DNA from: Phycicoccus elongatus Lp2
GTDB taxonomy: Bacteria > Actinomycetota > Actinomycetes > Actinomycetales > Dermatophilaceae
Direction of reading: 5' to 3'
DNA: 64,000 bases
Assembly: GCF_000367525.1 (NCBI RefSeq)
Contig: NZ_HF570956.1
Coordinates: 495,559 to 559,558, forward strand
The notes under the pieces are model-generated. The model was not told the DNA's origin. It worked only from the letters and a program-made list of their open reading frames with translations, and searched no databases. The position numbers and the translations under genes were made by a program. Shown here piece by piece: positions 1 through 47,259 of the stretch; position 1 is the first letter of the stretch, and each line of letters begins with the position of its first letter.

Positions 1-9
1 GAGTTGAGT

Positions 10-1432
10 CCGTAGCGTTGGTGTACGTCGACACCGGTGGCGTGTCCCTGCTGGATGCAGGTGCGGTCACCGCGTGATCCTTCGAGTGAACCTCTCACAG
101 CACTCTCGAATGGAGCATCGCGATGACCGCGAACCTCAGTATCGACCCTGACGTGTTCTTGCACGAGCAGCTCGCGCAGGCCAGCCCGGACTTGATGCGT
201 GACCTGCTCTCCACCTTCGTCAACGCCTTGTTGTCGGCGCAGGCCGACAGTGTGTGCGGCGCCGACTATGGGACCCGGTCAACCGAGCGGACGAACCGGC
301 GCAACGGGTACCGGCATCGGGACCTGGACACTCGCACCGGCACTCTCGACATCGCGATCCCCAAGCTGCGTGAAGGCAGCTTCTTCCCGGAGTGGCTGCT
401 GGAACGGCACCGCCGCGCTGAAGCCGCCCTGACCACCGTCGTGGCCACCTGCTACCTGCTTGGGGTCTCCACCCGCCGGATGGACAAACTGGTGCGCACG
501 CTGGGCATCACCGGCTTGTCGAAGTCAAAGGTCTCCGAGATGGCCAAGGACCTGGACGCCCAGGTCGAGGCGTTCCGGACCCGACCCTTGGACGAGGGGC
601 CGTACACGTTCGTGGCCGCCGACGCGCTCACGATGAAGGTGCGTGAGAACGGGCGGGTGGTCAAGGTCGCGGTCATGGTCGCCACCGGCGTCAACGCCGA
701 CGGCTACCGCGAAATCCTCGGTATCCAGTGCGCGACAACCGAATCCGGTGCGGGCTGGCTGGGGTTCTTCCGCGACCTCGTCGCCCGCGGCCTGACCAAA
801 GAAGGCCCGGTCGGCCTGGTCACCAGTGACGCCCACACCGGCTTGGTCGAGGCCATCGGCGCGACCCTGCCAGCTGCGTCCTGGCAACGCTGCCGCACCC
901 ACTACGCCGCGAACCTCATGGCCGCGACCCCCAAATCGCAGTGGGGTTGGGTCAAAGCCCTCCTGCACTCGGTGTACGACCAACCCGACGCCCAAGCCGT
1001 CCACGCCCAGTTCGACCGCGTCCTCGAGGGGCTGCACGACAAGCTCCCCGCAGTAGCCGAGCACCTCGAGGACGCCCGCGCCGACATCCTCGCCTTCACG
1101 ATCTTCCCGAAAGTGTTGTGGCGACAGATCTGGTCCAACAACCCCAACGAACGGTTGAACCGCGAGATCCGCCGGCGCACTGATGTCGTGGGCATCTTCC
1201 CCAACCGCGAAGCGATCATCCGCCTCGTCGGTGCCGTCCTGGCCGAGCAACACGACGAATGGGCCGAACAACGCCGCTACCTCGGACTCGAGGCCCTCAA
1301 ACAAGCCCGCGCAGCCCTCGCCGACCGCGAGACAGTCCTCCTGACCGAGGAGGTGAACCCCGACCTGATCGCCCGCGCCATCAGCGCCTGAACATCACCA
1401 TCGAACGATCACCTCGTACACCACCGCTCCGG
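10..1432 (+). mobile_element. IS256-family insertion sequence
   Basis: A single transposase gene is bracketed by imperfect terminal inverted repeats. The left repeat at 10-27 and the complement of the right repeat at 1415-1432 agree at 16 of 18 positions (shared core TTGGTGTACG on the left, GTGGTGTACG on the right). Further outward matching is poor, so the exact ends are uncertain and no convincing 8-9 bp target duplication directly abuts the repeats. The transposase is full length, so the element could be active. Genes to its right are decayed. Confidence 0.75.
123..1391 (+). CDS. IS256-family (mutator-type) DDE transposase
   Basis: This 422-residue protein has the length and layout of IS256 transposases, which cut and paste the element through a DDE active site. 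The catalytic residues can be placed as D167 (in FVAADALT), D236 (in LVTSDAHTG) and E343 (in NNPNERLNRE). The C-x2-H cluster WQRCRTHYAANL lies between the second and third, as usual for the family. An N-terminal basic region around residues 50-70 probably contacts the terminal repeats. A GGAG stretch lies just upstream of the ATG. It is the only gene of the element. No frameshift or truncation is visible, so it may be functional. Confidence 0.93.
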   Translation: MTANLSIDPDVFLHEQLAQASPDLMRDLLSTFVNALLSAQADSVCGADYGTRSTERTNRRNGYRHRDLDTRTGTLDIAIPKLREGSFFPEWLLERHRRAEAALTTVVATCYLLGVSTRRMDKLVRTLGITGLSKSKVSEMAKDLDAQVEAFRTRPLDEGPYTFVAADALTMKVRENGRVVKVAVMVATGVNADGYREILGIQCATTESGAGWLGFFRDLVARGLTKEGPVGLVTSDAHTGLVEAIGATLPAASWQRCRTHYAANLMAATPKSQWGWVKALLHSVYDQPDAQAVHAQFDRVLEGLHDKLPAVAEHLEDARADILAFTIFPKVLWRQIWSNNPNERLNREIRRRTDVVGIFPNREAIIRLVGAVLAEQHDEWAEQRRYLGLEALKQARAALADRETVLLTEEVNPDLIARAISA

Positions 1433-1829
1433 GCTTGACCTCGGCTCGCAAGCCCGGGTGCGGCACCCCCTTCCATGCCGGCCACGACGGCCAATCCACT
1501 ATCGGTCCGGCCGGACCTATCGGAATCGTCGCGCGTCAGCGATGAGGCAGCGCCTTGCGCAACCGACCTCCGTTCACCCACCGCCGCCGCGAACCAGCCG
1601 GGTCGACTCGTGCTTGCCAGCAGTCCTCGCAACGCTATGCCTCGTTTGCCTCACCTTCATTGGCATCTGGGTTATCGGGGAGGCAGGGTGAGTTGAGTCG
1701 TTGGGAATGGCCCGCCCGGAACGCAGCCATCCGGCGCCCGCCAGCGCGACCCCAGCGAAGGAGCGAGCACCCGGGCTAGGGGGCGGAACGACACCCTTGC
1801 CTGAGTCCGCGCACTGGATCGGGGGTTCT
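1392..1829. other. Gene-poor stretch right of the insertion sequence
   Basis: No convincing gene is seen here. An 8-bp perfect stem (CGGGCTTG at 1430-1437 pairing with 1449-1456) overlaps the right end of the insertion element and could act as a terminator. A short reading frame ending at 1691 has one hydrophobic C-terminal stretch but no recognisable ribosome site or family. The ten bases at 1-10 recur at 1690-1699. The stretch looks like decayed or junction DNA. Confidence 0.4.
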
Positions 1830-1994
1830 CACATCTGCGATGGAACCCCGTACTTCTTCACCGCCCCCTCCAACACCGGCATCCCCAGCGGATTCGACCT
1901 CAACAACAACGGGGTCGTCGGCGGGGGAGACGACGACTTCGGCTTCGGGCTGTTCCCGGGGCAGTACGGCATGGTCACACCGCGACAGGCCTGA
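1830..1994 (+). pseudogene. Remnant of an endonuclease/exonuclease/phosphatase-family protein
   Basis: About 50 residues are recognisable: a segment reading FFTAPSNTGIPSGFDLNNNG, then a Gly/Asp-rich loop and GFGLFPGQYGM. I know this pattern from the middle of large secreted EEP-fold nuclease or phosphatase proteins. The frame stops right after GQYGMV, and nothing on either side resembles the rest of such a protein, which normally has several hundred residues. It is therefore a short internal fragment, not a gene. The family call rests on recall of the motif and is moderately sure. Confidence 0.55.
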
Positions 1995-2030
1995 ACTGGT
2001 GTGACAGGCTGGGCGTATGGGGGCCGTGCC

Positions 2031-3248
2031 GTGAGTGCACCCGAGACCGAGCGGGTCGTGATTGTGTTGCGGGAGCGACCGCCCGCGGCGGTCGCGATGC
2101 GTCTTCATCGACTGCTCAGCATCGGCGCTGCCGAGGTGCTCAAGCGCGCCGACGACGCGCAGCCGCTGCTGGACCGGGGATTGTGGTTGAACGACCGCAT
2201 CCCGCTCGCGCACCTGCTGCGGGACGTTGTCGATGCTGTCGCGGGGCTGGCATTCGACGTGCACGTCGTCGCTCCCGAGGGTGCGGCCGGGCCCGACACC
2301 GTGACGGACGTGCAGGTCTTGTGGAACATGCTGCTCGCCGATCGCGAGGCGCCGCCGGCCGTGCGCCCGGAACCCGATCTGGAGCTCGCCCGAGCCATAG
2401 CTGACGCAACCCGGGCCGCGCTGTCGGAGCTGCCTGGGAGCGTGGCGGACGACCTGTGCGCGGTGGCGCTTGTCACGACCGGTGACGGACTGCGCCCATA
2501 CCTCACCGTCACGGTCGACGGCGACGAGCGGTGGGATCTCGCCGCCAGCGAGTTCGCGCTCATCGGCGACGAGCACTTCGAAGCCCTGAGAGATGTCTGG
2601 GATGCCCGCGGCGACCTGTACGAGCTCGACGACGAAGCCCTCGACGTCGAATTCGCGGTGCGGCTCGCGACCCTCGAAGAGGCGCTGCGCCTCCTCGACA
2701 TCGAGGGCGTGTTCGGCGCGGGCGAAGCGCGGCAGCAGGTGCTGCTGCTCGTCGCCACCATGCCGCCCGACCCCTCCGACGCGGCATATGCACGCCGACT
2801 CAACCCGGATGGGCCGCGCTTTCGGGACTGGCTGCGGGAAGCATCCGAGGCGCCCGAGCTCGTCCCGGCGCCGCCGTACCCGGAGGCAACCCCGACCGTC
2901 GACGTCACGCCACCGGTGCCGGTGCTCGCCGAACTGTGGTCGATCTCGCGCGGGGTTCTGCTCGCAGACGGCACGCAGATCTACGCACCCGAGGACATCG
3001 AGGAACGCAACGAGACCTTCCAGGTCGCCGAGTACGCGCCAGGATGGGTGCTCGTCGGCGACGACGGCGGGGGCCTGGGCTACCTCATGCGCCGCGCTGC
3101 CGGCGGATTCGATCCGGTCGAGTCCCGCGCGGTCGCCGAGGTGTATCGCCTCGACGTCGGTGCACTGTCGGACAGAATCACGGACGACGGCGAATACATC
3201 ACCGACGACCTCATCGGATGGCTCGCGACACGGAACGGAGACTGCTGA
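2031..3248 (+). CDS. DUF4303 plus SUKH-like immunity-type protein
   Basis: The protein has about 405 residues. The middle section (roughly residues 140-280, including DDLCAVALVTTGDG and an acidic helical stretch) resembles DUF4303. The last 100 residues, with APEDIEERNETFQVAEYAPG and VGDDGGGLGYL, look like a SMI1/KNR4 (SUKH) fold. Both families are common as immunity proteins beside polymorphic toxins. No toxin gene is recognisable nearby, so the partner may be lost. The GTG at 2031 is preferred because GGGGG lies about 7 bases upstream; an in-frame GTG at 2001 is the alternative. It overlaps the next, broken gene by one base. It is the only apparently intact gene among remnants. The function is inferred from fold resemblance only. 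Confidence 0.65.
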   Translation: MSAPETERVVIVLRERPPAAVAMRLHRLLSIGAAEVLKRADDAQPLLDRGLWLNDRIPLAHLLRDVVDAVAGLAFDVHVVAPEGAAGPDTVTDVQVLWNMLLADREAPPAVRPEPDLELARAIADATRAALSELPGSVADDLCAVALVTTGDGLRPYLTVTVDGDERWDLAASEFALIGDEHFEALRDVWDARGDLYELDDEALDVEFAVRLATLEEALRLLDIEGVFGAGEARQQVLLLVATMPPDPSDAAYARRLNPDGPRFRDWLREASEAPELVPAPPYPEATPTVDVTPPVPVLAELWSISRGVLLADGTQIYAPEDIEERNETFQVAEYAPGWVLVGDDGGGLGYLMRRAAGGFDPVESRAVAEVYRLDVGALSDRITDDGEYITDDLIGWLATRNGDC

Positions 3249-3540
3249 TGGTGCAGGTGCGGGCCGCGGGCGTCGCGTTGGATCAGTCCGGCCAGCACGT
3301 CATTCTGCTGAAGCCCATCGACGAGCTTCCGGGGGAGGGGCGGATCCTGCCGATCTGGATCGGTGCGCAGGAGGCGACCTCGATCCTCATCGCCGTCGAA
3401 GGCGCCGCCACCCCGCGGCCGCTCGCCCACGACCTCATGCGGGCGATGCTCGAAACCCCCCGCCGACGTCGACCGCGTCGAGGTGACCCGCATCGACGAC
3501 GGCACCTTCTACGCCGAGATCGGGCTGCGCGATCCAGATG
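3248..3540 (+). pseudogene. Broken bifunctional nuclease (DUF151) gene
   Basis: The start reads as the DUF151 bifunctional-nuclease fold: MVQVRAAGVALDQSG, then GRILPIWIGAQEATSI and a PRPLAHDLM block. After LETP the frame is lost at a run of six C at 3456-3461. Removing one C restores ADVDRVEVTRIDDGTFYAEI, the expected continuation. Homology then stops near 3540, about 60 residues short of a normal protein of roughly 160 residues, and the DNA runs into a reverse-strand mraY fragment. The gene therefore carries both a one-base insertion and a 3' truncation. The ATG overlaps the stop of the upstream gene as TGATG, so the two were once co-translated. Confidence 0.75.
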
Positions 3541-3735
3541 ACGAGGATGCCGGAGATCGTGGGGGGCGACCCGCCCGTGAACGTGCCGACGAGATAGCCG
3601 GTGATTGCTCCTGCGATGAGACGAGCCCGCCCATCGTGGGCGTGCCGCGCTTCGCGCCGTGCGACGGGTTGGCGGGGTCTTCGGGCGTGCGGATGACCTG
3701 CCCCCAGCCGAGCTTCTCGCCAATGGCACCTCCTT
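3540..3735 (-). pseudogene. Fragment of a second mraY
   Basis: On the reverse strand the translation reads [28 protein letters not shown] and, after a one-base frame change, LIAGAITGYLVGTF and PPTISGILVIW. This matches the conserved early part of MraY (phospho-MurNAc-pentapeptide transferase), where the intact gene at 46177 has [20 protein letters not shown] and WSGILVLF. Only about 65 of some 360 residues remain, with a frameshift in the middle, so it cannot work. It differs from the intact copy too much to be a recent duplicate. It more likely came from a divergent paralogue or from transfer. Confidence 0.7.
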
Positions 3736-4011
3736 CCACGTCGTCGACGGCACGCCCGAAGAAGTGCGGGCGTTGGCGCGTGAGGCGGCTGGCGGGAAGG
3801 ACGTGCGGATCGGCGGTGGGCCGACCACGGTGCGTGAGTTCCTTTCGTTGGACTGGCCGACGTCATGCAGGTCGTGCTCGTGCCGATCGTCCCGGGTCGA
3901 GGGGTGTCGCTGTGGGAGGGACTCGCAGGCCTCGAAGACGGTTACGACGTCGAGTCGATCGCGTCGGCGACCACGGGCGTGATGCACCTGATCGTCCGAC
4001 TCAAGGCCTGA
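3731..4011 (+). pseudogene. Remnant of a RibD-C/DHFR-like reductase
   Basis: The first part reads FHVVDGTPEEVRALAREAAG, then GKDVRIGGGPTTVREFL, typical of the C-terminal half of the dihydrofolate-reductase-like RibD-C family. The frame is lost around 3848. The next frame continues with GLADVMQVVLVPIVPGRGVS, LWEGL and EDGYDVES, ending at the TGA at 4009-4011. The N-terminal half with the cofactor-binding start is missing, because its place is occupied by the mraY fragment. It is a truncated and frameshifted pseudogene. Confidence 0.72.
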
Positions 4012-4072
4012 CCTGTTGGGGGGCTGTGCATAACCGGAAGGGCACTGCTCGCGTTCGGGCACAGTGAAGGAC

Positions 4073-4488
4073 ATGACCTTCGAGGACCTGCCATCAGACA
4101 TCCGCACGACACCGCTCATCGATCCTCAACTCCGTGCCGATCTCATCGACCTCATCGTCGGCGAGGAGGACCGCGAGTTCGGCAGCATCGCCATCTGGTT
4201 GTGTGACGAGGACCTGATCGGTGTGCAGCCGATGGTCTGCCACCAGTTGGGGCGGGCGACGCGCGCCAAGACCAAGAGGGTGCTCGAGGTCGCTCTGGAG
4301 GTCGCCATGGGCCCGCTCTTCGTCGCTGTGGGTAGGCCCGGATCGCCGCTGTTCACTCGCGACGACCTTGCCTTCGCCAACGAGGTGGTCGAACTCTGTG
4401 AGTCTCGGGGAGTTTTTGCCTCGGCGTCTTCGTCGCGACACCGGCATCGGTTCGTGAGGTTCCCGAGGCGTTGCGTCGTGTCGCCTAA
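4073..4488 (+). pseudogene. Frameshifted small RadC-like or hypothetical protein
   Basis: The first 115 residues from ATG 4073 (or GTG 4064) are well formed: LIDLIVGEEDREFGSIAIWL, MGPLFVAVGRPGSPLFTRDD and a helix ending CESRGV. At a run of T near 4412-4416 the frame shifts; the alternative frame continues sensibly as LGVFVATPASVREVPEALRR and stops with TAA at 4486-4488. The joined product would have about 140 residues. The pattern recalls small actinobacterial proteins related to RadC/JAB domains, but that family call is weak. A single homopolymer change could equally be a recent mutation or a sequencing error. Confidence 0.5.
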
Positions 4489-4504
4489 CGCGACCACGCT
4501 CGAG

Positions 4505-4873
4505 TCAGAGGCGGGTGCAGTCGTTCTGGCAACCGGTCGGCGGGGGAGGCCCGTCGCTGTGGGCCGCCGGCCGATGCAGGACTGCCGACTGTGGGGTCAC
4601 GGCAATCCCGGCGTCGGTGGCTGCCGCGGTGCCGTCGACGATGAGGGAGTAACCCTGTGCCTCCCGCGGCGGGAAGAGGACCGTTGCCGTCGGGTTGGTC
4701 GAGAGGTTCGACGCGCTCCCCTTCGAGGGGCCAACCAGGAGTATGCCGTCGACGCACGTGGGTTCGACCGTCACCGCCTTGACTCGACCGTCCGGGGACG
4801 TGGTCAGGAGATATCCGGCGCCGAAGTCCGCCAGCGCCTGCTCCAAGCGGTCGAGATCCACCGCGATGGTCAT
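4505..4873 (-). CDS. Pyridoxamine 5'-phosphate oxidase-like protein (split-barrel flavin fold)
   Basis: The 122-residue protein opens with MTIAVDLDRLEQALADFGAG, followed by YLLTTSPDGRVKAVTVEPTC and a VLFPPREAQGYSLIVDG strand. This layout fits the small PPOX-like split-barrel family, whose members bind FMN or F420 and reduce or oxidise small substrates. The substrate is not evident. The length is short but normal for the single-domain members, and the frame is intact. It is convergent with the broken small gene to its left and divergent from the lipoprotein gene. The first GTATGCCG octamer of the window lies inside it at 4741. Confidence 0.75.
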   Translation of the reverse strand: MTIAVDLDRLEQALADFGAGYLLTTSPDGRVKAVTVEPTCVDGILLVGPSKGSASNLSTNPTATVLFPPREAQGYSLIVDGTAAATDAGIAVTPQSAVLHRPAAHSDGPPPPTGCQNDCTRL

Positions 4874-4982
4874 GGACTCACCGTAGCCACCTGCCCCACC
4901 TCGCCCTGTGGATTGACCATCCCTTTACCTTTGATTGCTTAGGCTCGTGACAGTTCGGTTTCTTTGGGGGAAGGGCCTTCGG

Positions 4983-5561
4983 GTGAGGAAACAGCGATTT
5001 TGGTATGCCGCGGCCGCGGCGACGGTGCTGCTGGCGGCAGGGTGCAACGGTGGGGGTGACAACCAGCCGAGCCCCACGCCGACGCCGACGGTGAGCAGCC
5101 CGACGGCTTCGCCGTCTGACTCCGGCAGCCCCAGCCCGAGTGCGTCGGTGTCCATCCCTGCCGAGGCGATGGCGCAGACGCCCGAGGGTGCCGTGGCGTT
5201 CGTGCGCTTCTACTACGACCAACTGAATGCAGCCTGGGCGGCACCCAATTCTTCCAGTCTGGAAGGCTTGGCCGACCCGACCTGTGGCACATGTTCAAAC
5301 AACCGTGAGCATGCCAAGGAGCTTCTGACCGCTGGTGAGCGAGTCAAGGGCGACTCGGTGACATTGATCTCCGCCAGTCCTGCTGCAGGAGCCCCGGAGG
5401 GGCAGGAATTCGTTGACGTCGAGTTACATCAGCTTCCCGCCGAGATAGTTGCAGCCGATGGCTCTGTGGTCCGGACGGTCAACGATCGAAAGGGAATGCT
5501 GCGGGCAGTCGTGATCTGGCGCAACGACGGATGGCTCATCTACGGGATCGCCACGCCATGA
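4983..5561 (+). CDS. DUF6318-type secreted lipoprotein
   Basis: The product (192 residues from GTG 4983) begins VRKQRFWYAAAAATVLLAAG followed by Cys, a clear lipoprotein signal with the lipobox LAAGC. A Ser/Thr/Pro-rich linker follows, then a domain from about residue 70 containing TPEGAVAFVRFYYDQLN and a C-x2-C pair (PTCGTC). This matches the actinobacterial DUF6318 family of unknown role. GGGGGAAGGG at 4966-4975 places the ribosome 7 bases before this GTG, which is why it is chosen over the upstream GTG at 4935. It overlaps the next gene as ATGA, so the two are translationally coupled and probably act together at the cell surface. Confidence 0.8.
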   Translation: MRKQRFWYAAAAATVLLAAGCNGGGDNQPSPTPTPTVSSPTASPSDSGSPSPSASVSIPAEAMAQTPEGAVAFVRFYYDQLNAAWAAPNSSSLEGLADPTCGTCSNNREHAKELLTAGERVKGDSVTLISASPAAGAPEGQEFVDVELHQLPAEIVAADGSVVRTVNDRKGMLRAVVIWRNDGWLIYGIATP

Positions 5562-6499
5562 GCTTCCGGAGGCTGATCTTCGCGTTGGTTCCCATCGCTT
5601 TGTTGTTGCTCGGGGCCGGGCCGGCCACCGCCGACTCGCCTAATGATGAGCTGTTCTCACAAGTCGATGACGAGGCTGACAAGACCAAGATCGTCGGCAT
5701 GAGCAAGGCGCGTCTGGCGGAACTGGGTGACGAGATGGTCGGCTCAGCCGCGCAGGCGGGCGACTTCGCCGGTCCGTGGTCCAGGTTTGGTGCTACGTCA
5801 CCGTGTAGCGATGCGCCACCCGGTCCCGCGGCAAGCGACGACATGTGTCCACGGGCCGTGAGCATGTGCGCCAGGAACAGCAGCCCTGAAGCGCTTGGTC
5901 CCGCGGTCTTTGTCTGGCGAGCGCTGGTTGACCGAGACGGCAACCCCGTCGATGGCAGCGCAAACCCGATTCCCGCACTGGTCTGGAGCAACATCGGCTT
6001 CACGTGTTTCCCCGCCGCTGTTCCGGGTGCAGCACCGACGCTCACGATGGAGATGATCCTCAAGCAGTACCACGACACGAACTTCGCGCACCCGACGGTC
6101 AGTGTGCAGCCGGTGAATGGGCGGACCTTGGTCAACCTACCGACGTACTTCGAGCTGAAGTGGCCGGAGGCCGGCTTCCAGCCAGACGAGGTCGACACAA
6201 CAACGCTCATCGGGCGGCAGGTTCGGATCAAGCCTGCGCTGAAGCAGGCGGTCTATGTCTTCGGCGACGGCCAGTCGTTCGGTCCCACGACGAGCTTGGG
6301 CGGTCCTCACCCCACGGGCGACGTCACGCACACGTACAGGTCCACGGCCAATGCCCAGGTGCGGGTCGACGTCACCTACTCGGGTCAGTTCAGTGTCGAC
6401 GGGGGGCCGTGGATCGACGTGCCGGGCGAGGCCACCGTCGCAGGTGACCCCTTCCCGCTCGAGGTTCTCGAGGCGCACGCCCAACTCGTCACCCGCTGA
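5558..6499 (+). CDS. Secreted protein with PKD-like C-terminal domain
   Basis: The ATG at 5558 overlaps the stop of the lipoprotein gene. The 313-residue protein starts with a signal peptide (MSFRRLIFALVPIALLLLG, cleavage likely after ATA near residue 26). The middle part has cysteines that may pair (SPCSDAPPG, DDMCPRAVSMC, GFTCFP). From about residue 215, YVFGDGQSFGPTT and THTYRSTANAQVRVDVTYSG have the pattern of a PKD-like beta-sandwich. No catalytic motif is seen. Being coupled to a DUF6318 lipoprotein suggests a shared envelope role, but the function is unknown. A long hairpin follows the stop. Confidence 0.75.
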   Translation: MSFRRLIFALVPIALLLLGAGPATADSPNDELFSQVDDEADKTKIVGMSKARLAELGDEMVGSAAQAGDFAGPWSRFGATSPCSDAPPGPAASDDMCPRAVSMCARNSSPEALGPAVFVWRALVDRDGNPVDGSANPIPALVWSNIGFTCFPAAVPGAAPTLTMEMILKQYHDTNFAHPTVSVQPVNGRTLVNLPTYFELKWPEAGFQPDEVDTTTLIGRQVRIKPALKQAVYVFGDGQSFGPTTSLGGPHPTGDVTHTYRSTANAQVRVDVTYSGQFSVDGGPWIDVPGEATVAGDPFPLEVLEAHAQLVTR

Positions 6500-6514
6500 C
6501 AAGGCCAGCCCCAT

Positions 6515-6564
6515 CTTGGGTGTCGGGTTGAGGGGGTCAGGACCCCCTCAACCCGACACCCAAG
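6515..6564. terminator. Perfect 24-bp hairpin terminator
   Basis: Positions 6515-6538 pair perfectly with 6541-6564 across a two-base centre; the arms begin CTTGGGTGTCGG. It lies 15 bases after the stop of the secreted-protein gene. There is no T run, as is common for actinobacterial terminators, and the hairpin would work in either orientation. Confidence 0.8.
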
Positions 6565-6769
6565 TTGAGCCGGCCTCCTGACGGGACCCCGCGGCGCACC
6601 CACGGCTCACTGGCGGCACACCCACGCGCCCTCGCCGCGCTCACCGCGCCGACAGACCAGTGCGCCCACGCAGACGCCCCATGGCTCCAGTGGCCTTCGG
6701 AATCGCACGGCTGCAGATTTTTAACTTTCCTTTACGTTCGCGCCGATCGTGCGACCCACCCGTCTCTCC

Positions 6770-6775
6770 TAGGGT
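6770..6775 (+). promoter_or_regulatory. Possible -10 element for the aminopeptidase gene
   Basis: The 264 bases between the hairpin and the aminopeptidase start hold no gene. They include an AT-richer stretch (about 6716-6735) and TAGGGT at 6770-6775, which fits TANNNT. That would give a leader of roughly 45 bases containing GGAGACGACGAC before the ATG at 6829. No clear -35 is seen. Confidence 0.35.
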
Positions 6776-6828
6776 CGAGGGGCCCCCGGCACACCGCTGG
6801 GGAACCCTGACGAAACGGAGACGACGAC

Positions 6829-8352
6829 ATGCGTGTGCAACGACGCACAGCAGCATCCACCGCCGCCTTGGCCCTCACCGGGCTGATCGCCACCAGCATT
6901 GCGGCCGCTCCCGCCCAGGCGGGCAACCCCAACAGCGCGCGCAAACTCGCCGATGCTGTCACCACTCAGGGCGTCATGCGCCACCTCAAGACACTCCAGG
7001 GCATCGCCGACGCCAACGACGGCAACCGCGGCGCCGGCACCTCCGGCTACGAGGCCTCCGGCGCCTACGTCGAGCAGCAGCTCCGCGCGGCCGGCTACAG
7101 CCCACAGCGTCAGTACTTCGACTTCTTCTACGAGGAGGTCCACGCGACCAGCCTCACCGAGGTCGCACCAGGCAGCGGGCCGATCGAGAACAACCCGATG
7201 AGCTACAGCCAGGGCACCGGCCCTGGCGGCGTCACGGGTGAACTCGCCTCGCCGGCCGTCAACGTGCAGGGCTGTGACGCGGCTGCCTACGGTGGGGCCA
7301 ACCTCACCGGCAAGATCGCGCTCGTCAGCCGTGGCACCTGCTCCTTCGCGCAGAAGGCACAGGTGGCCCACCAGGTCGGCGCCGCCGCCGTCATCGTCTA
7401 CAACAACGCCGCTGGCGCCCTCAACGGCACTCTCGGTGGAGTCGACCCGGCGACCGCTCCGGCCACAGGGGTCACGCAAGCGACGGGCCAGTCCCTGCTC
7501 GCCAAGATGGCCAACGGCTCAGTGACGGTGAAGTTCGTCCTCGACAAGTCGATGGAGACCCGCCAGACCTTCAACATCACCACCGAGACCAAGACCGGTG
7601 ACCCCAACAACGTGGTCATGATGGGCGCCCACCTCGACGGCGTGCACGACGGCCCGGGCATCAACGACAACGGTTCCGGCACGGCTTCGATCCTCGAGAC
7701 CGCGATCCAGCTCGGCAAGGCCAACAAGGTCAACAACAAGGTCCGTTTCGCGTGGTGGGGCGCAGAGGAGCTCGGTCTCCTGGGCTCCGAGCACTACGTC
7801 TACGACCTCGCCGAGAACAACCCGGCCGAACTCGCCAAGATCGCGACCTACCTCAACTACGACATGGTCGCCTCGCCGAACTACATCATCGGGGTCTACG
7901 ACGCGAACGAGTCGACCTACACGGCGCCGGTCGACGTGCCCGAGGGCTCGATCCAGACCGAGAAGATCCTCACGGACTACTTCGACAGCATCGGTCAGCC
8001 CTGGGTCGACACCGCGTTCTCCGGTCGCTCCGACTACGCCGCCTTCATCGAGTTGGGCGTCGCATCGTCGGGCCTCTTCACCGGCGCCGACGGCAGCAAG
8101 ACCGCCGACGAGGTCGCGAAGTTCGGCGGGACCGAGGGCATCATGTATGACCCGAACTACCACACCCCGCAGGACGACATCAACAACGTCAACGCCGAGG
8201 CCCTGGGCATCATGAGTAAGGCGATCGCCTTCTCGACCGGCACCCTGGCCTACGACACGTCGATGATCAACGGCAAGCGCAGCGCCGGCAAGTCCGGCAA
8301 GCCGCACCCCACCAAGGGCACGCAGATCGCGCCCGATGAGGCTGCCGCCTGA
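6829..8352 (+). CDS. Secreted M28-family zinc aminopeptidase with PA domain
   Basis: A signal peptide (residues 1-31, ending PAQA) sends this 507-residue protein out of the cell. An N-terminal helical part is followed by a PA (protease-associated) domain around residues 140-245 with GKIALVSRGTCSFAQKA. The M28 catalytic domain carries the two-zinc ligands in order: GAHLDGV near 266, NDNGSG near 279, EELG near 312, a YDMV aspartate near 345 and NYHTPQDD near 443. This is the arrangement of Streptomyces-type aminopeptidases that release N-terminal residues from peptides. A short Lys/Gly-rich tail ends the protein. A strong hairpin follows the stop, so it is probably a single-gene unit used for scavenging peptides. 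Confidence 0.9.
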   Translation: MRVQRRTAASTAALALTGLIATSIAAAPAQAGNPNSARKLADAVTTQGVMRHLKTLQGIADANDGNRGAGTSGYEASGAYVEQQLRAAGYSPQRQYFDFFYEEVHATSLTEVAPGSGPIENNPMSYSQGTGPGGVTGELASPAVNVQGCDAAAYGGANLTGKIALVSRGTCSFAQKAQVAHQVGAAAVIVYNNAAGALNGTLGGVDPATAPATGVTQATGQSLLAKMANGSVTVKFVLDKSMETRQTFNITTETKTGDPNNVVMMGAHLDGVHDGPGINDNGSGTASILETAIQLGKANKVNNKVRFAWWGAEELGLLGSEHYVYDLAENNPAELAKIATYLNYDMVASPNYIIGVYDANESTYTAPVDVPEGSIQTEKILTDYFDSIGQPWVDTAFSGRSDYAAFIELGVASSGLFTGADGSKTADEVAKFGGTEGIMYDPNYHTPQDDINNVNAEALGIMSKAIAFSTGTLAYDTSMINGKRSAGKSGKPHPTKGTQIAPDEAAA

Positions 8353-8376
8353 GGTTGTCGCACAGCGCAATTGACG

Positions 8377-8407
8377 TGGCCCCGGCTCGCAACGCGAGCC
8401 GGGGCCA
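8377..8407. terminator. Hairpin terminator after the aminopeptidase gene
   Basis: A perfect 14-bp stem (8377-8390 with 8394-8407, arms starting TGGCCCCGGC) encloses a three-base loop. It lies 25 bases past the stop codon, between convergent genes, and a short pyrimidine-rich stretch follows. Confidence 0.85.
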
Positions 8408-8417
8408 TCCCCTTTGT

Positions 8418-8482
8418 TCCGGTATGCCGTGTTGCCCGACCGCCGAAAGTGCACTATTGGCGGGTTCCGGTATGCCGTGGTG
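8418..8482. repeat. Intergenic repeat unit with two GTATGCCG octamers
   Basis: Between the convergent aminopeptidase and transporter genes, two copies of CCGGTATGCCGTG (around 8420 and 8468) flank the segment 8443-8470, which holds CCGAAAGTGCACTATTGG then CGGGTTCCGG. The same core (GCACTATTGG, one variable base, GGGTT) occurs twice more at 19577-19652. It is non-coding and its role is unknown. Confidence 0.7.
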
Positions 8483-8494
8483 ACCGACCCAGGG

Positions 8495-10075
8495 TCAGGC
8501 GACGATGGTCAGGATCTGCGTGATGACGATCTTGGTGACCATGGCCACCGGGTAGACGAGGGCATAGCCCAGGGCCACGCGCTCGTCGAAGCGCGAGGTC
8601 GAGTTGGCGAAGGCGAGGATCGCCGGCTGCGTCTGGGACCCGGAGATGAAGCCGGCCAGTCGAGGGCCACCGACACCGAGGAAGCCGCGCGAGATGACGA
8701 GCAGGGCCGCCGCGTGCACCGCCGAGACCACGGCGCCCGCAGCAATGATCTTGAGCCCGAGCGGGGTCTGCACCGCGGCGAGGAAGGCCGACCCGGCCCG
8801 GCCACCGGCATACGCGAGGAAGAGCAGGAGGCCGAGCTGCGTCAGCACCTCCGAGGCCTGGTGGGGGAGGGTCCACACGACGCGACCCGTGCGCTGCAAC
8901 CGTCCGAGCACGAGACCCACCACAAGGGGACCGGCGGCCGAGCCGAGGGTCATCGCGCCCAGCCCCGGGATGAGGATCGGCAGGGCCCCGAGCGCCAGTC
9001 CGATGGCCAGACCCAGCGCCAACCCGAGGGGGTTGATGTCGGCGGAGCCGTGCTCGGAGTCACCGAGATAGCTCGCCACTTCGTTCATCCGCTCACGGGG
9101 TGCGGCGACGCGGATCCGGTCGCCGGCCTGCAGGACGAAACCGTCGGTCGCGAGGAAGTCGTGGTCGGCCCTTCGCACCCGCGTGGGCCGAGCCTCGAAG
9201 GTGCTCCAGAGATCGAGGTCGCCCACCGTCCGACCGAAGAACCGCTTCTCCGACAATACGATCCGCCGGAAATCGACATCGTGCCGCTCCTCGTCCAGGC
9301 GCAGACCCGAGCGCCTCCCGAGTTGCTTGATGGCGTGCTCGACCGCCAGCGCCGGACCGACGGCCAGGACGCGGTCACCGGGCCGCAGAACCGTGTCCCC
9401 GTGTGACATGTCGATCTCCCCGTCACCCACCTGGTGTCGTGAGAAGAGCACCCGGCCGTGGGGTGTCCAGGTCAGTTCGCTGACCGTCAGGGGGTTGTCG
9501 TGGGTGACCTTGATCGTCGCGTTGACGATCGGCTCGGGCCCGGTCTCGTCATCGCTCTCACGGGAGGGCTGTCGGATGCCCCACGCGGCCGCGGCCAGGA
9601 GGAAGGCGACGCCCAGGACATAGGTCATCGAGTAGGCCACGGTCGGCTCCGGAGCCCCCTCGAGCCGCTCGATCGCCGCGGCGAGGGCCGGGGTGTTGGT
9701 GTTGGCGCCGGCATACAAACCGGCGACCGTCCCGGCGTCGAAGCCGAGGACGCGCCCGAGCACGCCGGCGAGCACGCCCACGCCCACGAGGGTCCCGAAG
9801 ACCATGAACACCGGTTTGGCCCCCGAGCGCAGCGAGGAGAAGAAGGACGGCCCGGCGACCAGCCCCACGCAGTACGCAAAGAGCGCCAGCCCGAAGGTGC
9901 CCAGGACTTCGGGGAGCGCAAGATCCTTGTGCCAGGCCGAGAATCCGAGAGCCGTGAAGAGCACCGCGGCGGGGCCGATCGAGATGCCGCGCACGCGGAT
10001 CTGGCCCACGACGGTGCCGATGGCCAAGATGACGAAGAGCAGAAGGACCGAATGTTCGGCCAGGAACGTCCTCAC
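8495..10075 (-). CDS. AspT/YidE-YbjL-type membrane transporter
   Basis: The 526-residue protein has about five membrane helices in its N-terminal half (SVLLLFVILAIGTVVGQIRV onward, with NTNTPALAA in a repeat loop), two soluble RCK-C/TrkA-C-like domains in the middle, and a second set of helices at the end with SGSQTQPAIL as the matching repeat loop. This duplicated layout is that of the AspT exchanger family and E. coli YidE/YbjL. The substrate, probably an organic anion or amino acid, cannot be told from sequence. The GTG at 10075 is chosen because TACGCT sits 8 bases upstream on the reverse strand, fitting a leaderless transcript; an in-frame GTG lies at 10081. It is divergent from the DUF4921 gene. 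Confidence 0.85.
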   Translation of the reverse strand: MRTFLAEHSVLLLFVILAIGTVVGQIRVRGISIGPAAVLFTALGFSAWHKDLALPEVLGTFGLALFAYCVGLVAGPSFFSSLRSGAKPVFMVFGTLVGVGVLAGVLGRVLGFDAGTVAGLYAGANTNTPALAAAIERLEGAPEPTVAYSMTYVLGVAFLLAAAAWGIRQPSRESDDETGPEPIVNATIKVTHDNPLTVSELTWTPHGRVLFSRHQVGDGEIDMSHGDTVLRPGDRVLAVGPALAVEHAIKQLGRRSGLRLDEERHDVDFRRIVLSEKRFFGRTVGDLDLWSTFEARPTRVRRADHDFLATDGFVLQAGDRIRVAAPRERMNEVASYLGDSEHGSADINPLGLALGLAIGLALGALPILIPGLGAMTLGSAAGPLVVGLVLGRLQRTGRVVWTLPHQASEVLTQLGLLLFLAYAGGRAGSAFLAAVQTPLGLKIIAAGAVVSAVHAAALLVISRGFLGVGGPRLAGFISGSQTQPAILAFANSTSRFDERVALGYALVYPVAMVTKIVITQILTIVA

Positions 10076-46176: not shown

Positions 46177-47259
46177 GTGCTCACCGTCCTCGTGGCCGCG
46201 GTCGTCTCGCTCATCATCTCCCTCTTCGGGACCCCGGCCTTCATCAAGGTGTTGGTCAAGCGAGGTTTCGGCCAGTTCATCCGGGACGACGGCCCCACCT
46301 CGCACCACACCAAGCGCGGCACGCCCACGATGGGTGGCGCCGTCATCGTCCTGTCGACCCTGCTGGCCTATGGCGCCGCGCACCTGGCCTTCTGGACCCA
46401 ACCCACCTGGTCCGGGATCCTCGTGCTGTTCCTCATGACCGGGCTGGGCCTGGTCGGGTTCCTCGATGACTACATCAAGATCTCCAAGCAGCGCAGCCTG
46501 GGCCTGCGCTCGAAGCAGAAACTCGCCGGCCAGACCCTCGTTGCCGTGCTCTTCGCGGTCCTCGTGCTGCAGTTCCCCAATGGCTCCAACCGGACCCCGG
46601 CCTCGACCAAGGTCTCCTTCGTCCGCGACACCAACCTGGACCTCGCCTTCGCGGGGACGGTCGGCGGGCTCATCCTCTTCATCATCTGGGCGAACCTCAT
46701 CGTCGCGGCCACCTCGAATGCCGTGAACCTCACCGACGGACTCGACGGCCTGGCGACGGGCGCGTCGGTGATGGTCTTCGCGGCATACATCCTCATCGGT
46801 GTCTGGGAGTTCAACCAGAACTGCCAGTTCAACCCCGGGCTCAAGTGCTACGAGGTCCGTGACCCGCACGATCTGGCCACCGTGGCAGCGGCCGCCATGG
46901 GTGCCTGCTTCGGCTTCCTGTGGTGGAACACCTCGCCCGCGAAGATCTTCATGGGGGACACCGGATCGCTTGCGCTGGGCGGCCTCATGGCCGGCCTGGC
47001 GATCACGTCGCGGACCCAACTTCTCGTCATCATCCTCGGCGGGCTCTTCGTCATCATCACGCTGTCCGTGATCATCCAGGTCGCGTCCTTCAAGGCCACG
47101 GGCAAACGGGTCTTCCGCATGGCGCCACTGCAACATCACTTCGAGTTGCTCGGGTGGCAAGAGGTGACGATCGTCGTGCGGTTCTGGATCATTGCCGGAC
47201 TGTGCGTGGCTCTCGGTCTGGGCCTGTTCTATGCGGAGTGGGTGGTGGGCGGCTCATGA
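46177..47259 (+). CDS. mraY: Phospho-N-acetylmuramoyl-pentapeptide transferase
   Basis: MraY (360 residues, ten membrane helices) moves the phospho-MurNAc-pentapeptide to undecaprenyl phosphate, giving lipid I. Conserved stretches are the [16 protein letters not shown] loop, FLDDYIKI with the catalytic aspartates, [28 protein letters not shown] and [23 protein letters not shown] at 46158-46166 precedes the GTG. This is the functional copy; a decayed fragment of another mraY lies at 3540-3735. The stop overlaps murD. Confidence 0.95.

Follow-up and report, generated by a model that had tools for sequence, protein, structure and literature searches.

A scrap of Microbacterium-type mraY in a probable patchwork of foreign gene pieces in Phycicoccus elongatus Lp2

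The window analysed here, a stretch of 64,000 nucleotides from the genome of Phycicoccus elongatus Lp2, carries a short internal piece of an mraY gene of Microbacterium type, in addition to the intact native gene. Our preferred reading, to which we give a probability of about 0.6, takes this piece to be a scrap of foreign DNA without function, lying within a patchwork of such scraps, which would have been captured and joined at a DNA break and would then have decayed. That the foreign patchwork is real is regarded as very likely, and the end-joining step is less sure than the patchwork itself. A scrap of foreign DNA is of an already known and ordinary kind, and the structure is mildly interesting. 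The features on which the argument rests are the following (coordinates are those of the window).

2..1440, plus strand: IS256-family insertion sequence, with its transposase at 123-1391
1441..1448, plus strand: TCGGCTCG, the 8 bases to the right of the window IS256, identical to the 8 bases to the left of the IS copy at G000:C1:2230212
1847..1976, plus strand: internal 130-bp piece of an endonuclease/exonuclease/phosphatase gene (up to 85% at the DNA level, G096)
2001..3248, plus strand: intact gene with a DUF4303 domain, before the bfn piece (PF14136, E 6.2e-15)
3248..3530, plus strand: 5' part, including the start codon, of a bfn (bifunctional nuclease) gene of Microbacteriaceae type (PF02577, E 4.7e-12), with a frame break near 3458
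3532..3719, minus strand: internal mraY piece of Microbacterium type, about 188 bp or about 62 codons, with one frame break
3719..4011, plus strand: 3' part, down to the stop codon, of a RibD_C (dihydrofolate-reductase-like) gene, with a frame break near 3850
46177..47259, plus strand: native mraY, intact, 360 aa, in the dcw cluster, the comparison gene (PF00953 present)

Extent and Reading Frame of the mraY Fragment

The fragment consists of internal codons only, with neither gene end present, and is covered by a minus-strand frame that is open from 3509 to 3739. At the DNA level the region matches genome G124 (E 6.8e-19), and the homology to the mraY genes of the Microbacterium group extends over 3532-3719 (78.8% over 189 columns to G472) and stops at these two positions. 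The first-pass annotation, which had drawn the fragment from 3540 to 3735, was right that a piece of mraY lies here and wrong about its end, since the last 16 or so bases before 3735 already belong to the neighbouring piece; the true extent is also shorter than the one drawn. In a Pfam search, the fragment frame matches MraY signature 1 (PF10555; 23.3 bits against a cut-off of 20.1, E 4.1e-5) and nothing else; neither PF00953 (Glycosyl transferase 4) nor the full length of an MraY was found. Past the TPTMGG motif there is a single frame break (near 3618), beyond which the homology to mraY resumes in another frame as IAGAITGYLVGTFTGGSPPTISGILVIW. Compared with a functional MraY of some 360-370 codons, the fragment has signature 1 and the sequence of the early loops, whereas it is only about 62 codons long, has a broken frame and is without the catalytic remainder.

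Descent of the mraY Fragment

At the protein level the fragment is 65-80% identical to ten Microbacterium-type loci, as against 44% to the native MraY, the latter over 61 positions. Its top DNA matches belong to g79, a single genus group from a different family (G472, 78.8%; G499, 78.3%; G524, 77.1%), and one Microbacterium record matches it at 81% over a shorter stretch; the group is called Microbacterium here because DNA is shared between its member G359 and Microbacterium sp. K24. A short loop insertion that precedes the sequence KRGTPTMGG in the fragment is present in nine of nine Microbacterium-type MraYs and in none of 30 others, a count that covers the genomes and records in which a motif search found mraY and leaves out G308 of the Microbacterium group, whose row was missed. 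In an mraY tree of 42 rows, which includes G308 and was built from matches covering at least 70% of the piece, with duplicates and shorter matches dropped, the fragment falls among the Microbacterium rows with a support of 100/98; the tree rests on 58 columns and its bootstrap had not fully settled. An AU test did not reject the host family by itself (p-AU 0.118) but did reject a placement of the fragment with it (0.0029).

Judged from its sequence, the fragment is a Microbacterium-type mraY by descent, since the grouping in the tree and the loop insertion were both found, and what remains of it reads as an ordinary housekeeping mraY of that type. The foreign origin surmised in the first-pass annotation is borne out by the Microbacterium clade, the AU test and the loop insertion, and the phylogeny against actinobacterial MraY that had been proposed as a check is the tree just described. 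The annotation had also held that the fragment differs clearly from the intact gene at 46177, which is the case: only 38 bases of the native gene can be aligned with it at the DNA level (87%), and a search of the host genome with positions 1441-5000 returned, besides the query itself, only these 38 bases. The outcome named beforehand as speaking against the claim was that the fragment would be nearly identical to the native gene; it is not, and therefore the claim withstood its own check. A copy of the native mraY duplicated long ago and since diverged would be of the same protein family, and pseudogenes can evolve fast, but the AU test rejects the grouping with the host family that such a duplicate predicts, the fragment bears the Microbacterium-type insertion, and its identity to the native protein is low, so that this origin is rejected as scarcely credible.

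Among the Microbacterium records is one of 465 kb that is called a plasmid (L023, NZ_CP072877.1) and carries rsmH, an ftsW-type gene and mraY of the cell-division cluster; its mraY is unannotated and has a broken frame, and the record may be chromosomal.

The Pieces Joined to the Fragment

The mraY fragment is flanked on both sides by parts of unrelated genes. The bfn piece, which is cut off at the mraY piece, has its nearest rows in G804, G440 and G524 and groups with the Microbacterium-group rows at an SH-aLRT of 89 in a quick tree without bootstrap (95 columns), apart from the intact BFN of the host, which sits elsewhere in the genome. The RibD_C piece has its closest locus in G681, a member of the host family (77% DNA); its own frames in the window gave no Pfam match, and its family is named through the protein of the G681 locus, which matches PF01872 (RibD_C). 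The RibD_C tree, again a quick one without bootstrap (88 columns), was poorly resolved. An origin of all three pieces from Microbacteriaceae was rejected, the RibD_C piece being nearest to the host family and not to Microbacterium, so that one donor does not explain all three, a point that counts against the preferred reading.

The bfn, mraY and RibD_C pieces, each with one frame break, tile with abrupt ends and abut within a few bases, and no insertion sequence and no evident repeat were seen at the bfn/mraY and mraY/RibD_C joints. The joints are abrupt in comparison with homologues, the true donor sequence not being among the genomes searched. In the Microbacterium group, each of the seven genomes listed with both a bfn and an mraY match has the two separated by at least 1.1 Mb or placed on separate contigs, namely 1.12 Mb apart on one contig in G308 and in G440, 1.20 Mb apart in G721, and on different contigs in G524, G765, G773 and G804. 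Among the best two candidates per genome from 398 Microbacteriaceae or 396 genomes of the order, no match spans two pieces, and one intact donor stretch with bfn, mraY and ribD_C was rejected on this result; the exception is that the mraY matches of G128 and G622 overrun the bfn/mraY joint by about 20 bases, that of G128 being its ordinary mraY.

The same observations bear on the further proposal of the first-pass annotation, that a whole second mraY was once present here, perhaps as part of a foreign cell-wall cluster or as a gene for resistance to MraY-directed antibiotics. That the piece is foreign, divergent and placed in a remnant zone speaks for it and stands. The rest does not, since only some 62 internal codons are left, joined directly to unrelated genes on both sides, and their sequence is that of an ordinary Microbacterium-type mraY. 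In the Microbacterium-group genomes, bfn and mraY homologues stand well apart, and the search for further mur remnants around the insertion element that had been suggested found none, either in window 1-5560 (Pfam, selected frames) or among the ORFs listed for the left side given by the scaffold and for the left side now inferred to be the true one (see below). As to resistance, there is only the fragment itself, and the neighbouring frames given to Pfam belong to other families or are unnamed. A literature search on a second mraY as such gave nothing among the papers listed. The proposal is therefore considered very improbable, and with it falls a misleading suggestion of a second mraY or of resistance; if the chain of pieces is real, it also shows annotators that a fragment of an essential gene may carry a known motif and yet be debris.

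The zone to the left of the joined pieces holds another scrap, the 130-bp piece at 1847-1976, whose homology ends sharply on both sides (the corresponding gene of G096 matches PF03372). Between this scrap and the bfn piece lies the DUF4303 gene, whose stop codon overlaps the start of bfn.

Origin of the Patchwork

In the preferred reading of capture and joining at a break, a Microbacterium-like cell that had lysed would have released short pieces of DNA, and these would have entered the host or an ancestor of it; there they would have been joined, without homology, both to one another and to a break in the chromosome, either through Ku/LigD end joining or in some other illegitimate way; the ligated pieces would then have decayed, and an IS256 element would have inserted beside them. 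Genes for the Ku/LigD route are present elsewhere in the genome, where Ku, the LigD ligase domain and the LigD polymerase domain pass the NCBIfam cut-offs (TIGR02772, TIGR02779 and TIGR02778), but their presence does not show that Ku/LigD made the joints. At this locus (L188, 7496-10380), Ku lies beside the LigD ligase and polymerase domains, which are found on two separate, slightly overlapping ORFs.

A stronger form of this reading, in which 3248-4011 would be a natural record of multi-piece repair, with several outside pieces, at least two of them from loci more than 1 Mb apart in one Microbacterium-like cell, ligated in a row into one break by Ku/LigD, is put forward only tentatively. If it were true, a genome-wide search for such chains of scraps could show with whose DNA a species patches its breaks. 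If the chain is real, it would be a compact example of the entry of short foreign DNA into an actinobacterial genome without a mobile-element carrier.

Alternatively, the patchwork might have been formed elsewhere, for example on a plasmid or island of Microbacteriaceae or of related bacteria, and have entered as one stretch that later decayed. This would agree with the adjoining intact DUF4303 gene, which has its best match in yet another family (G671, 58% over residues 9-414), and with the presence of a short bfn-domain ORF close to IS256-family transposase genes on a plasmid of Microbacterium. However, such an origin is unlikely, as the search of the Microbacteriaceae and of the order, limited to the best two candidates per genome, gave no two-piece match, the mraY matches of G128 and G622 pass the joint by the short overrun only (in G128 within an ordinary mraY), and a plasmid search with positions 3200-4100 gave two partial matches only. 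Such a bfn-domain ORF, of about 86 aa, lies at L024 3023-3283 on plasmid B of Microbacterium sp. No. 7, between IS256-family transposase genes.

Failed horizontal transfer is a known source of prokaryotic pseudogenes (Liu et al., 2004, PMC522871). The mraY fragment shows the foreign origin and the disabling change expected of such pseudogenes, and resembles them in its foreign type, its disabling changes and its lack of any sign of function; it differs from them in the direct joining of several internal pieces, all very small and from unrelated genes. In transformation, HFIR and SPDIR are illegitimate routes that are considered rare in nature (PMC7192050). The likeness here lies in the insertion of short foreign pieces that lack flanking homology along their full length, whereas in the present case several pieces of about 190-290 bp stand in a row, and in an actinobacterium. 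Bacteria with Ku homologues have been proposed to be able to take in outside DNA (PMC1378119), and with Ku/LigD end joining the patchwork shares the encoded Ku and LigD domains and joints without an IS or evident repeat; unlike in that system, a role of Ku/LigD in the present joints is putative. In a literature search that covered few subscription papers, none of the papers listed dealt with chains of foreign pieces in bacteria.

Genomic Location and Scaffold Gaps

The one-contig genome is a scaffold with gaps of 100 N. Six full copies of the IS256 element were found in it, at least 99.9% alike over 1440 bases; each of the five other copies borders on a gap at one of its ends, and the window itself begins beside a scaffold gap. 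The repetition of TCGGCTCG is probably a target duplication, to judge by the sequences, and the 8-base identity would put the true left neighbour of the window IS256 at G000:C1:2230212; sampling from the window gives a chance of about 0.0006 that nine comparisons yield one or more matches of this kind. To the left of that copy lie genes that we take to match nrdR and nrdJ, while the left neighbour of the window in the scaffold presumably consists of nadA and a glycerate-kinase-like frame. The latter was rejected as a guide because it lies behind the gap, and is probably wrong. An 8-base flank (cgacccag) also pairs L070 with L067, the IS copies concerned being at 2929319 and 3112777. Such paired flanks suggest misordered scaffold joins, and the scaffold neighbours beside IS256 gaps are not to be trusted.

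Most probably, the site of the patchwork is a variable one, bounded by nrdJ and by a conserved gene at window 8500. The distance from the end of nrdJ to the homologue of that gene is 261 bp in G001 and about 19.6 kb, on one contig, in G002, and the site differs strongly among the three genomes of the genus. No tRNA genes were found at the variable site in the five loci scanned. The stretch from nrdJ to window 8500 (L089, L087, L161 and window 1441-8500) has the appearance of a hotspot of accessory genes.

The condition of the scaffold also raises the question of an assembly or library artefact, in which contaminant Microbacterium reads would have been joined into the contig near a repeat. The 100-N gaps, the gap-flanked IS copies, the start of the window next to a gap and the frame break in each of the three pieces would all suit such an event. 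Nevertheless, the 64-kb stretch is free of gaps and the pieces are 1.8-2.6 kb inside it; their donors are of two kinds or more, with the host's own family among them, and the surrounding gene before 4500 looks broken too, as would be expected from natural decay; contamination has been put at 0.04%. An artefact is accordingly judged quite improbable, less so than a second mraY and more so than a patchwork formed elsewhere.

Two repeated sequences were also observed. At window 6512-6567 there is a 27-nt inverted repeat with near copies at several further sites in the genome, which is perhaps a dispersed terminator or repeat, and a stretch of about 50 bases at L081 (about 9824-9874) recurs at dozens of places in the genome.
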